Translations under genes and position numbers: made by a program | In this document: positions 59,001 to 63,850 of the stretch, in pieces | Layout: each line of letters begins with the position of its first letter | Position numbering within the stretch: position 1 is the first letter of the stretch | Assembly (NCBI RefSeq): GCF_018873765.1 | Contig: NC_057922.1 | Location: 14,831,563 to 14,895,562, forward strand | Length of the DNA: 64,000 nt | Reading direction: 5' to 3' | Source: Telopea speciosissima | Lineage: Eukaryota > Streptophyta > Magnoliopsida > Proteales > Proteaceae | The notes under the pieces: generated by a model | The model's input: only the letters and a program-made list of their open reading frames with translations | Told to the model about the DNA's origin: nothing | Databases searched by the model: none

Positions 59001-59539
59001 CCAAACAGACGTTTTTTCATCTCGAAACCACTGCATTCTGCTTAATTGGGGGGGGGGGGGGGGAGGAATTTGTCCAGGTCAAACAAACAATCCACTCTAT
59101 CATGAATAGGTTTCAGCTAAATTACTCACTTTCTCTAATCGACCTAACATATTGAGGTTCATCAACTCTTAGTAAAAATACGAATCAGGCTTGGGTTAAA
59201 GAGACAACAAAGAAATGTTAATGAATTTAAGTTTAAATCAAAGCACCGTCATATTGGAGAGAGGAGGGGGGGAATCAAGTTTTTGGAAAAATTCAAGTTT
59301 TGGGGAACAATGAAGACCTGAAAGTTCCTCTGGAAGCTGTATCTGAGTTCAGGATCGAGTTCGGTGAGTGATTCATCGTCTTCGGTGGTGGAAGAATTTG
59401 AAGAGCCTGATTTCTTGCGAGGAACGTACATCGTAGGAGTCGTTCCGGGCTGGTTAGTAGCTTTAAGCTTAGCGTCTCGGAATTTTTCTGGTTTCTCTAC
59501 GTCCCTCCATGGGGCAGAAGCGAGAAGCTCCTTTTTCAT
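56006..59539 (-). CDS. Small protein of unknown function, 136 residues
   Basis: Three minus-strand exons, 59539-59318, 57299-57185 and 56079-56006, splice in frame with GT-AG borders. The protein begins MKKELLASAPWRD, has a basic then Ser/Thr/acid-rich middle (RKKSGSSNSSTTEDDESLTE), then LDPELRYSFQRNFQ and a moderately hydrophobic segment (AMAYNVSRNLSFFTRIFTQF), and ends QEEKVRRVR. I have no family name for it. The clean splicing and regular composition argue for a real gene. An in-frame GTG codon two codons upstream is not the start; the ATG at 59539 is. A (GA)n run lies in the leader just upstream (about 59553-59570). The promoter is cut by a transposon whose near end is 212 bp from the ATG. 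Confidence 0.78.
57029..57053. repeat. (AC)n microsatellite
   Basis: About twelve AC units in the second intron of the minus-strand gene. Confidence 0.85.
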
Positions 59540-60161
59540 CTTCACCAGCTATAGAGAGAGAGAGAGAGAGATGTGAAGATAACTAGTGGGAGACTCGACT
59601 CGAAGGTTTTCTCAATTCTGTTCTTATCTATTTCCTTCTATACTTCACCAGCTCGTGAAGTTTGTATCCTACACCACCCGCCATGTGTTGACACGTAAGA
59701 GGGCCTTTGCAATAGCAGGTCCACGGATTCGAATTCAAGGATAAAAAAAAGGGTAATTTCCACGGACCTCCCCTGAAGAATGGCCAAATACTAGGCACCT
59801 CCCCTGGTGCTTGAATTTGGACTCCGGCACCCCCTACTATTAACGGTGTCAAATAAAAAAAATTAAAATGATCATATTACCCTTGTACATAAAATAAAAG
59901 AGAATACATTCTCTTCTGTTAACGAAAAGAACTTGTTAGCAGAGAAAGCTCGAGTGAAGAAACCTTGGAGTAAAAATCCAAAAATCTAACTGGTAAACTG
60001 TTTCAAGCTAATCAAAGCATTTCTTTTCCAAATAAACAAAGACCTTGGTTTGCTTATGTGAAAAACAGGAATCAAAGAATCAAAGCTAATCAAAGCATTT
60101 CTTTCCTTCACCTGAGAGTTCTGCAAATCCTTAACGTGGTCGATTCGTTCCCAATTTGAAG

Positions 60162-60709
60162 ATGGAAACCACCACAATTCAACGAAAACCACTCTCTTAT
60201 TGGCTGTCGGACCACCCATCGATCGTGGGGTTTTGATGGAGTCACTCCCAATCGTGGGGTTCCACATGGTCCTTCCTATTCTCCTCCATAGCCGCCTACA
60301 TCACCCTCTCCGTCTTCCTTCACCTCTTCTTGGCTCTCTTCCGCCGCAGCCACAGTCCGGTGCCTCTTGGCCCCATCCCTGCAATCCATAGCGTTGCCAT
60401 GTTCCTTCTCTCCGTCGTCATCTTCGTCGGGATCCTCCTCTCCACCACCTCCGAGATACGTGACACCCGTTGTTTCTGGCGGCGTTCCAAAACCCCTTTC
60501 CAGTGGCTCCTCTGCTTCCCCTTGGGACTCGCCCCAGCGGCCGTGTCTTCTTCTGGTCTTACGTCTTCTACCTCTCACGTTTCCTCCACTTGCTTCGCAC
60601 CTTCTCTGTCGCTGTAAGCTCACATTCTTTCAACTCTTCAACCAATCCATTCTCCTCTGCATGTCCTTCCTGTGGCTTGAGTTCTCGCAATCGTTCCAGG
60701 TCTTGGTAA
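60162..60709 (+). pseudogene. Captured, broken ELO-family (HOS3-like) fatty-acid elongase gene
   Basis: From ATG at 60162 the frame reads METTTIQRKPLSYWLSDHPS then IVGF, a stop (TGA, where family members have Arg CGA), then WSHSQSWGSTWSFLF, PVPLGPIPAIHS and TSEIRDTRCFWRRSKTPFQW. A frame change leads to GTRPSGRVFFWSYVFYLSRF then LHLLRTF, and a second to FFQLFNQSILLCMSFLWLEF then SQSFQVL. I recognise this as the GNS1/SUR4 (ELO) family, closest to Arabidopsis HOS3-like proteins, which extend very long fatty acids in the ER. The C-terminal third is missing. One stop and two frameshifts are visible, so no elongase is made. The 5' part includes leader-like sequence, so the capture took a gene's beginning. 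Confidence 0.82.
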
Positions 60710-60932
60710 GTCAATGGGAAGAACTTTACCGGTTTGAATTTAAATTATAACTTCTGTTTCCATCAACTAGTCCCAAATTGAAGGACACAATGCTTCACAC
60801 GTTAAAAAGAATGATTTTCTTCGAACACTGAGACCCAAATAGAAGAATCCAGTCCAATTACAAGTTTAATTTTACTCACCGGCGAATACGGTGGCCTTTG
60901 ATTTCTGTTCTTTTTTACAAATTCTTTATCCA

Positions 60933-61070
60933 GTGAATGAGCTCGTCCGTCGTCGGCATGCACAGTTGCAAGTTTCTGTGCGTGCCCAGTTGCAGGTTTC
61001 TGCTTCGGTGATGGTGAATGAGCTCGTCCGTCGTCGGCATGTACAGTTGCAGATTTCTGCTTCGATGATC
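60933..61070. repeat. 81-bp tandem repeat inside the Pack-TIR element
   Basis: GTGAATGAGCTCGTCCGTCG followed by TCGGCATG(C/T)ACAGTTGCA occurs at 60933 and 61014. On the minus strand it encodes two copies of KxATVHADDGRAHS in an open frame (60802-61125). It may be a piece of a second captured gene, not identified. Confidence 0.6.
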
Positions 61071-61279
61071 TATTAAAACACTTTGTTTCGTCTATTAAGT
61101 TGCTTATGTCATCATTTAATATCATTATAATAACAGCGTGGTGTTAGAGGTTTGACACCGTTAATAGTAGGGGGTGCAGGAGTCCAAATTCAAGCGCCAG
61201 GGGAGGTGCCTGGCGTTTGGCCATTCTTCAGGGGAGGTCCGTGGAAATTACCCCCAAAAAAAAGGAAAAGAGGAGGTGA

Positions 61280-61640
61280 CGTGGCTCGCGTGGCCCATGT
61301 GGTGAGCGCGGCTCTGCACCTAGACATAGAAGCACATAAAAGTATCACATTGCCCTCATGGAAAGACGAAATCCGACGGGTGATTTTTGCGTGTGTGCTC
61401 CCATTGGCCAATGCATAAATGCAGGTTCTAAAGACCTATGCAGCATTCTCTTGCCAAAAAATAAAAAATAAACATAAGTCCACGGATTCCATTTGGAATG
61501 TGGAAAGGTGGCATGACCAACATGGCTCTTGCATCTAGACACAGGAGTGCGCAAAAGTACCGCACTACCCCATGGAAAGGCAGAAATCCCACCTAAGATG
61601 ATGCTTGTATGCATGCTTCATTGGCCAACACACACTTGCA
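61280..61640. repeat. Two tandem copies of the 16857-type degenerate repeat
   Basis: The unit contains a CATGTGGT/CAACATGG block, GGCTCT(G/T)(C)AC/ATCTAGACA(T/C)A, GCACATAAAAGTA or GCGCAAAAGTACCGCA, CATGGAAAG(A/G)C and CATTGGCCAA. It is followed by GCCC/GACC T and occurs at about 61280-61440 and 61505-61660. Related blocks, mostly reversed, are at 16857, 21350 and 43505. Confidence 0.5.
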
Positions 61641-61989: not shown

Positions 61990-63850
61990 TGGCATCAGCA
62001 TCAGTGACAACAATAAGGTGATGACTGATGAGCCATAGGCAAGTCCAGACACTCAGGAAATGATAGGGAAGAAGACGGCAAAGGAGAGCTTGGAAGGGAA
62101 AAAGAAGGGTTGTGAGATAAGTAAAGATAAGAAGTCCAACGAGAGATATTTTGCAAAACAGAGATGGGTTTAGGAGTGGACTGAGTGAACATAACTTGAT
62201 TTCTAAAGAGTCCAGATAAAGCGCACAGTGATAGCTATAATACTAGAAATCCACTTAAGATCAAACATAGACATAGTTTTGTCATGGTTATTAGAATATG
62301 CAGACTAGATATATAAACCAGAATGTTAAAAGAGAGGGAGGATGGAAAAGCTAATTTTGCTTGAAGTGAATGAGAATCTGAGTTCAATGAAGCTGTTCTG
62401 AGCTGGATATCTAAGAAAATTTCCTTCTACAAATGTTCTTATTATTGAAGTTCTGTATTTGGTTAGCCAATTAGAATTTGCATTCACCCCAATTTCCAGT
62501 CTCCTTTGATCCATTTGATCTTTTGAATGCCAGTTTCAAGTTTCAGTAAGGGGTATGACATGATGTATTGGTCAAACTGTTTCGCCGACAATTCAAACCT
62601 ATCAGATCTGTAAAAAATGATTCATAAAACTTTGAAATGCCCATCTCCTTAAGTAGGATTCTGGGATTGCATACGCCTCTGCATGCTCTGCACTCCACAG
62701 AAGTGTTAACATTTCCTAATCCTTAAAATTTTGGATCTCATGAGAGAGACACTTGAAGTCTCACAGATGATAATGTCACTAGTTGCCTGCCTCTATATGC
62801 TTATAAGTTGACTGAAACATCATCAAGGTTGAGTTGTGACATTGTCAGTTGATGGCATCAGGTGTAGCGTATTATTCGCTATCTTTAATCTTCAGCTCAA
62901 AGATCAATTTTAAAGGCCAAATAGAAGAAGAAAAGTAACTCCCATGACACATTAAAGCAAATATGGGGACATTGGGTCACCCTTATCTATGCTGCAGGAG
63001 AGAGAGAGAGAGAGAGAGAGCTGCCTGGACATGGGGATCCATTAAGCAAAATGGACAGAGTACGAGTTGAGATTCAAATCTTATCATTTCCACCCACTTA
63101 GGATATATCCATAAGCAGTGAGTACTTGCTGAATAAAACTCCATTCCAATTGATCATATGCACTTGCCATGTCAATCTTAAGAGCCATGAGACCCAATCT
63201 TCCTCTTCTTTTCTTGTGAATAGTATGAAAGGTTTCATGAGCAAGGAGAATGTTTCCTTGAATTAACCTATTGACTACATAGGCGAAATGGTTGGGAGAT
63301 CTGATTTTTTTTCGAGCAGAGGCATCACCATAAACAAGCAACTTAACTATGATCTTGTAAATGAAGTTGGATAGACCAATTGGGCTGAACTTAACAACTG
63401 AATCAGCCTGTTCCGATTTAGCAATCAGACAAACAAAGGTGTAATTCATCCACTTAGAAAAACAACCTGTTTGGAAAAATTGCCTCAACTCTCCCCAACA
63501 GAGGGCCAGCAAGCTCTACAGAATACCCTGAAAATACATCAGGGCAAGGAGTAGAATTTAGGTTAAGTTGTTACATAATATGAAATATTTCGTGAGCAGA
63601 AGGTGATGCCAATAAGCAATCATTATCTTCTTGCGTAACCTTGTAGTGAATTCCTTCAAGAAAACCATCCAAGGATTATACGGATCAATCAACTCATCTA
63701 CCACTACATGACATGTGTTGAAGCAAAAAATGCTTCACCAGCTTGATAGACTGTACAATCATTCATCTTCAGTATTTGGTATTTTTGGCCGTTAATAAGG
63801 GTTTTTTGGTCATTAGAATATGCTAAAGCGTTTTTCATGGATCAATCAGT
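61990..63850 (-). mobile_element. Decayed LINE (L1-like), reverse transcriptase and beginning of RNase H
   Basis: On the minus strand, 63512-63084 reads KFSPIGLSNFIYKIIVKLL (family 'FRPISLCNVIYKIISK'), NHFAYVVNRLIQGNILLAHE and LGLMALKIDMASAYDQLEW, the N-terminal and central blocks of a LINE reverse transcriptase. Downstream frames give SILLNGSPCPGS, DKGDPMSPYLL (family RQGDPLSPYLF) and a weak SDIIIC replacing the catalytic FADD region. Near 62010 TDADASFIR recalls the start of RNase H. Upstream, at about 63560-63640, LASPSAHEIFHIM and CPDVFSGY fit the preceding region. Multiple frameshifts and stops; inactive. The right part may run past the window end. No poly(A) or target duplication found. 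Confidence 0.7.
63000..63020. repeat. (GA)n microsatellite within the LINE remnant
   Basis: About ten GA units interrupt the LINE between its LLNG and DKGDP blocks, showing expansion after insertion. Confidence 0.8.

Follow-up and report, generated by a model that had tools for sequence, protein, structure and literature searches.

An element at positions 59751 to 61253 of the window (the whole stretch of 64,000 nucleotides that was analysed, C7:14831563-14895562) is a non-autonomous Mutator-like element (MULE) of the Pack-MULE kind, an ordinary plant element and no new class, and its sequence preserves, with unusual clarity, the traces of what look like two gene captures, one after the other. 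We are highly confident in the explanation as a whole, that a Pack-MULE would have taken up first part of the nuclear gene encoding plastid L15 and then the front of an ELO gene, with later spread and pseudogene drift. In a sequence-only reading of this DNA, the element had been described as young, bounded by inverted repeats and carrying the captured front of an ELO (HOS3-like) gene; Pfam assigns the family as ELO (GNS1/SUR4), and our analysis adds the Mutator class, a multicopy family, a second captured gene and transposase-bearing relatives. The features of the element and its edges, in window positions, are as follows.

59743-59750, no strand: candidate target duplication in the left flank, AAAAAAAA, 8 bp, ambiguous poly-A
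59751-61253, plus strand: whole Pack-MULE, 1503 bp
59751-59853, plus strand: left terminal inverted repeat (TIR), 103 bp, of which 98 are the same as in the right arm
59751-59961, plus strand: the element's own left end, common to the L15-carrying and the transposase-bearing relatives
59962-60101, plus strand: left filler; a genome search gave six matches, namely the five ELO copies and one 48-bp match
59992-60039, plus strand: MLO-like 48 bp, 96% identical to C4:23329609-23329656, upstream of an MLO-family gene
60005-60026, plus strand: 22-bp direct repeat, copy 1, within the MLO-like piece
60083-60104, plus strand: 22-bp direct repeat, copy 2, extending to the ELO start
60102-60706, plus strand: captured ELO fragment, 605 bp, equivalent to 616 bp of the donor-type gene
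60162-60164, plus strand: captured ATG, start of METTTIQRK...
60234-60236, plus strand: TGA at donor codon 25 (CGA), also in the C2 copy
60707-60889, plus strand: right filler, with CTTG/GTAAGT formed at the ELO junction
60890-60933, plus strand: 44-bp stub of the nuclear gene for plastid L15, with its right breakpoint as in the element at C10:45.09 Mb
60934-61253, plus strand: the element's own right end, with an internal direct repeat (60933-60978 and 61014-61059)
61151-61253, minus strand: right TIR, 103 bp
61256-61263, no strand: candidate target duplication in the right flank, AAAAAAAA, matching 59743-59750 at 8/8 positions, with the arm end 2 bases off

The TIRs, given as 103 bp and about 95% identical in the sequence-only reading, agreed at 98/103 positions when measured; by comparison, 200 random places in the window paired at a mean of 43/103 and a maximum of 52/103. 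MULEs have long TIRs, target duplications of 8-11 bp and a DDE transposase that often comes with a zinc finger (PMC6446971, PMC3310237), and the TIRs of Pack-MULEs are typically 100-500 bp (PMC3310237). We assign the element to the MULEs because the family combines long TIRs, 9-bp duplications and, between the same TIRs, MULE transposase domains; as a short element with pieces of genes and without a transposase, it is a Pack-MULE. Eleven frames of ≥70 codons overlap the element, three of which (59628-59876, 61134-61418 and 61190-61435) run through its ends; a Pfam scan of the other eight yielded two ELO matches below the cut-off, six frames with no family at the thresholds applied and no transposase gene.

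We searched the 823-Mb genome, whose gene families and elements suggest a flowering plant, for further copies. Only the best candidates were scored in each search (e.g., 40 of 568 or 150 of 551), which makes every copy number a minimum. The query with the left end gave 17 matches, and that with the ELO part gave 13, consisting of five Pack-MULE copies, two intact genes, five members of a second repeat family and one match at C7:5.24 Mb. The five copies have the same build and lie on five contigs (the window copy on C7, and copies at C10:61.10, C2:53.33, C1:63.94 and C4:1.40 Mb); their flanks are unrelated, and homology stops no more than ~12 bases from the arm ends. A search for other copies of the TIR, as the sequence-only reading had proposed, found 134 places genome-wide within three mismatches of the 23-base TIR end, against one for the control. 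Variant TIR ends such as GGGTAATTTACACGTACCTCCCC occur at several of the 134 places, and some of the places are in opposite orientation, 3-20 kb apart.

Perfect 9-bp target duplications flank the C2 copy (TAATTTTAT) and the C4 copy (TTTTAAAAA). The C1 copy, in which the right arm is without its middle part, has a duplication of 8/9 by eye if its last bases are a mutated end. Runs of eight A flank the window copy with a two-base offset, which is ambiguous as a duplication, and the flanks of the C10:61.10 Mb copy, whose last bases are altered, contain no recognisable duplication. The five dispersed copies imply past movement of the ELO Pack-MULE. When we searched for an empty site with the joined flanks of the window copy, none of the 40 scored matches (of 75 candidates) ran across the junction; two were the locus itself, and 38 were parts of the right flank only. 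Within that flank, part of 61254-61420 matches a diverged repeat (38 scored places, 72-89% identity).

Two long elements have ends of the same kind. The element at C5:28972125-28999928 (27.8 kb) has 9-bp direct repeats AAAGAAAAA outside its ends, identified by eye, and a 296-codon open frame within it matches DBD_Tnp_Mut (7.3e-16) and MULE (6.5e-9), both above the cut-off. The element at C3:49904351-49923439 (19.1 kb) has 10-bp direct repeats TTTTTTTTAA outside, likewise found by eye; one of its frames matches SWIM above the cut-off (1.5e-6), and two further frames match DBD_Tnp_Mut under its cut-off (0.0012 and 0.046). The open frames of the C3 element are 87-90% identical to those of the C5 element. 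Among the best 150 of 551 candidates for the C3 transposase piece, only C3 itself and C5 (87%) exceeded 58% identity, and a genome search with the SWIM piece gave 90% for C5 and ≤53% for all other scored places. The frames of the C3 element are split, and the SWIM stretch of the C5 element is interrupted by a stop; both elements are apparently broken and have probably been enlarged by other insertions. The transposase that moved the ELO Pack-MULE would have come in trans from long relatives such as these.

A search for the parental ELO gene and its alignment, also suggested by the sequence-only reading, identified an intact gene of the donor type at C4:15547149-15548078, with a single open frame of 309 codons and a Pfam ELO (GNS1/SUR4) match at 2.3e-40. 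Positions 60102-60706 of the window align to this gene with 92.7% identity over 616 columns, which, together with the matching arms, upholds the original view that a TIR element took up the 5' part of an ELO gene. The captured span includes 60 bp before the ATG and 556 bp of coding sequence, into codon 186 of 309, and its open stretch at 60237-60617 matches Pfam ELO slightly below the cut-off (1e-5; 25.7 bits against 27). With gaps excluded, identity to the C4 gene is 94-95% for the ELO parts of all five copies. G+C content is 0.536 in the captured stretch, 0.524 in the left arm and 0.378 in the window; a preference for GC-rich sequence is described for Pack-MULEs of rice and maize (PMC3310237).

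An ELO paralogue is located at C5:10.16 Mb, and the comparison of the C4 and C5 genes (dN 0.059, dS 0.664 over 306 codons) indicates that both are under purifying selection. Twelve fixed substitutions separate the C4 gene from all five copies, and 9/12 are at third positions (one-sided p 0.004), suggesting that the majority probably date from a time when the sequence still encoded protein, on the line of the C4 gene or in a close sister of it. The actual donor may therefore have been an allele or a paralogue rather than the C4 gene itself. The remaining ELO match, at C7:5239137-5239195, is a 60-base match with 85% identity to the ELO part and possibly belongs to another ELO gene.

At C10:45.09 Mb, a sister Pack-MULE (positions 1543-2984 of the extracted locus L011) carries part of the nuclear gene encoding plastid L15 between the same two ends. 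Within its interior, 625 bases match a gene at C6:42.15 Mb with 89.4% identity. The element's frame has matches to the chloroplast uL15c chain (2.6e-39) and to NCBIfam rplO (1e-17), the latter below a cut-off that the frame of the C6 gene passes; Pfam identified nothing on the L15 frame of the element. An intron-like stretch (GTAAG...CAG) of the L15 gene is retained in the element, indicating that the template was DNA rather than mRNA. The 44-base L15 stub is present in all five ELO copies (88.6% identical in the window copy), with its end at the very base where the L15 piece of the sister element ends, and is absent from the C3 and C5 elements; of 1000 random 45-mers drawn from the window, none had a match to the L15 locus as good as that of the stub. 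A shared stub with the same breakpoint suggests that L15 was probably captured first and then mostly overwritten by ELO, and this probable order depends on one 44-bp stub.

The fillers on either side of the ELO piece contain further traces. The C4 counterpart of the MLO-like 48 bp in the left filler lies ~370 bases upstream of an MLO-family start codon, and this DNA is a possible third source of internal sequence. The second copy of the 22-base repeat in the left filler reaches the beginning of the ELO piece. There, CTTTTCC is common to the ELO gene and the C10:61.10 and C2 copies, by eye, with one T fewer in the window copy; junction marks of this type are expected under template switching (PMC8277862). 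A genome search with the right filler gave no match outside the family. At 60703-60711, CTTG/GTAAGT at the right ELO junction resembles a splice donor and is present in 5/5 copies. In the mechanism that we propose, template switching in the course of repairing breaks or gaps would have exchanged internal sequence at the DNA level. The first insert would have been part of the plastid-L15 gene; later, most of it would have been lost and replaced by pieces from elsewhere, including the front of the ELO gene, and the finished element would then have spread and drifted as a pseudogene fragment.

Aligned to the C4 gene, the window copy shows a single stop (CGA to TGA at codon 25) and two frame-changing deletions of 1 nt and 10 nt, the same counts as the one stop and two frame changes noted from the sequence. 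The 1-base deletion, at CDS position 362, occurs in 5/5 copies, the TGA in the window copy and C2, and the 10-base deletion only in the window copy. Only part of the decay is therefore specific to the window copy. That TGA had been explained by decay of methylated C; the substitution is of the CpG-transition kind, and 27 of the 74 copy-private changes are likewise CpG transitions (a raw share; 63 are transitions of any kind), consistent with such decay. Further indels occur in C1, C2 and C4 and other stops in C1 and C4, so that stops in the parental frame are found in 4/5 copies, with none in the C10:61.10 Mb copy.

The description of the element as young is not supported. Arm identity in the four ELO copies measured was 98, 90, 98 and 87 of 103, and K2P distances among copies ranged from 0.056 to 0.082 in the ELO part and from 0.057 to 0.103 elsewhere. 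Distances from the copies to the C4 gene were similar (0.053-0.067), which suggests that capture and spread were close in time. Of the private changes, 63/74 fell in coding sequence; two with a differing parental base or an incomplete codon were left out, and 61 were counted (39 nonsynonymous and 22 synonymous). The synonymous fraction was 0.361, versus 0.361 ± 0.057 expected without selection, so the private changes of the five copies contain no sign of selection on protein in the captured ELO piece. The piece covers 185/309 codons and has neither the open full-length frame nor the purifying selection of a functional ELO gene. The element most likely yields no useful protein; a coding function of the captured piece was tested and is unsupported, as the private changes look neutral.

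Three other accounts of the element's structure were weighed. The sequence-only reading had itself raised the possibility of two independent MITEs flanking a resident ELO pseudogene. The TIR is indeed repetitive, with its 134 places, but arms, fillers and ELO piece follow one order at five loci with unrelated flanks, 9-bp duplications lie exactly at the arm ends in two copies, and homology ends within ~12 bases of the arm ends; the arms are therefore not two independent MITEs, and we rejected this account as having a negligible chance of being correct. The other counter-case raised there, ELO homology running beyond the TIRs in other copies, fails as well, since homology past the captured piece was found only in the two intact genes. 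That the ELO piece is a retrocopy or segmental duplicate engulfed by the element is very improbable. The donor-type gene is a single open frame, which is compatible with a retrocopy and makes the missing introns uninformative; however, the piece begins before the ATG and stops mid-gene without a 3' end, and the intron-like stretch in the sister L15 piece shows that the family takes DNA. Moreover, no free-standing retrocopy was recognised among 12 of the 13 ELO matches (all but that at C7:5.24 Mb), and this account was rejected on the mid-gene breakpoints and the intron-like stretch. Membership of another TIR superfamily (hAT, CACTA or PIF/Harbinger) could draw on the ambiguous 8-bp duplication of the window copy, yet it is scarcely credible given the 9-bp duplications of its siblings and the MULE transposase domains between the same TIRs.

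Capture of L15 before ELO has a stronger competitor, in which ELO and L15 elements swapped right ends by recombination or conversion after separate captures. The stub is short, and the ELO right end is no closer to the L15 element (73.8% over 367 columns) than to C3 (76.0% over 283 columns), although the stretches compared are not the same: the right end at 60934-61253 is common to the C10:45.09 Mb element throughout, and to C3 and C5 from 60980 on. This lack of closer similarity makes a later end exchange a live rival. Set against it are the stub with the same breakpoint in every ELO copy and the ELO left end, which is nearer to the L15 element (90.5% over 211 columns) than to C3 and C5 (84-85% over element bases 47-211); we consider the exchange unlikely and favor the order L15 then ELO. 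A separate proposal, that ELO Pack-MULEs act on the donor gene via antisense or small RNAs, would accord with the statement that Pack-MULEs have the potential to regulate parental genes (PMC3310237) and with the similarity of the ELO parts to the C4 gene, but the private changes look neutral, which speaks against coding function and is hardly a test of RNA function. Such regulation seems quite improbable.

Five further loci (L026-L030, at C4:9.77, C9:47.33, C1:75.45, C3:44.67 and C4:9.80 Mb) belong to a different dispersed repeat with an ELO piece of 233-252 bp from the same stretch as in the Pack-MULE. One end of this repeat had 568 candidate places at first look, of which the best 40 were scored, and a search of the five loci for terminal inverted repeats found no convincing pair. 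The five loci share the Pack-MULE base at two sites where the ELO genes agree and at a third where the genes differ. Their ELO piece groups with the five Pack-MULE copies in the tree (support 90/93); an alternative tree with the five Pack-MULE copies as one clade without this piece was not rejected (p-AU 0.22). The source of the piece may thus be either a Pack-MULE or the same donor. We regard as possible, though less likely than not, a chain in which a MULE took plastid-L15 and overwrote it with ELO, and an unrelated repeat then took ~246 bp of ELO from the Pack-MULE and spread it again; if so, Pack-MULE copies would themselves be donors for other mobile DNA.

The ELO element resembles described Pack-MULEs of rice, maize, Arabidopsis and tomato (PM-ZIBP) in being non-autonomous, with long TIRs and a gene fragment, and amplified after capture (PMC3310237). 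Pack-MULE target duplications are given there as 9-11 bp, and perfect 9-bp duplications occur here in 2/5 copies. As described, PM-ZIBP has 13 copies with tandem TIRs and one with single TIRs (PMC3310237), whereas the ELO Pack-MULE has another donor gene, another TIR family, single TIRs and a stub of another captured gene. An interior from more than one gene is also reported for MULE-derived putative genes of Oryza, 5-10% of which have at least two parental genes (PMC4858842); unlike in those cases as reported, an order of capture can be proposed here, as the piece of the other gene survives in a sister element. The fillers, if joined by template switching, would fit the gap-filling and FoSTeST models for Pack-TIRs, which come from work on animals that calls the plant Pack-MULE question worth exploring (PMC8277862).

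Our literature search of open-licence papers found no Pack-MULE with an elongase and no Pack-MULE "sequential acquisition." To our knowledge, gene acquisition by Pack-MULEs has so far been more modelled than observed. In this genome, three stages are present side by side: a transposase-bearing MULE, an L15-carrying derivative and an ELO-carrying derivative with an L15 stub. With breakpoints available base by base, these stages offer a compact system for testing models of gap filling and template switching, and they suggest that, in a single lineage of elements, one captured gene can take the place of another.

Two open frames lie near the element. The frame at 59249-59548 (minus strand), which starts MKKELLASAPWRDVEKPEKFRDAK... 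~210 bp from the element, looks by eye like a first exon; a Pfam scan gave no match, and the Pack-MULE would sit upstream of this frame. The frame at 63084-63515 (minus strand) resembles, by eye, a fragment of a LINE reverse transcriptase.
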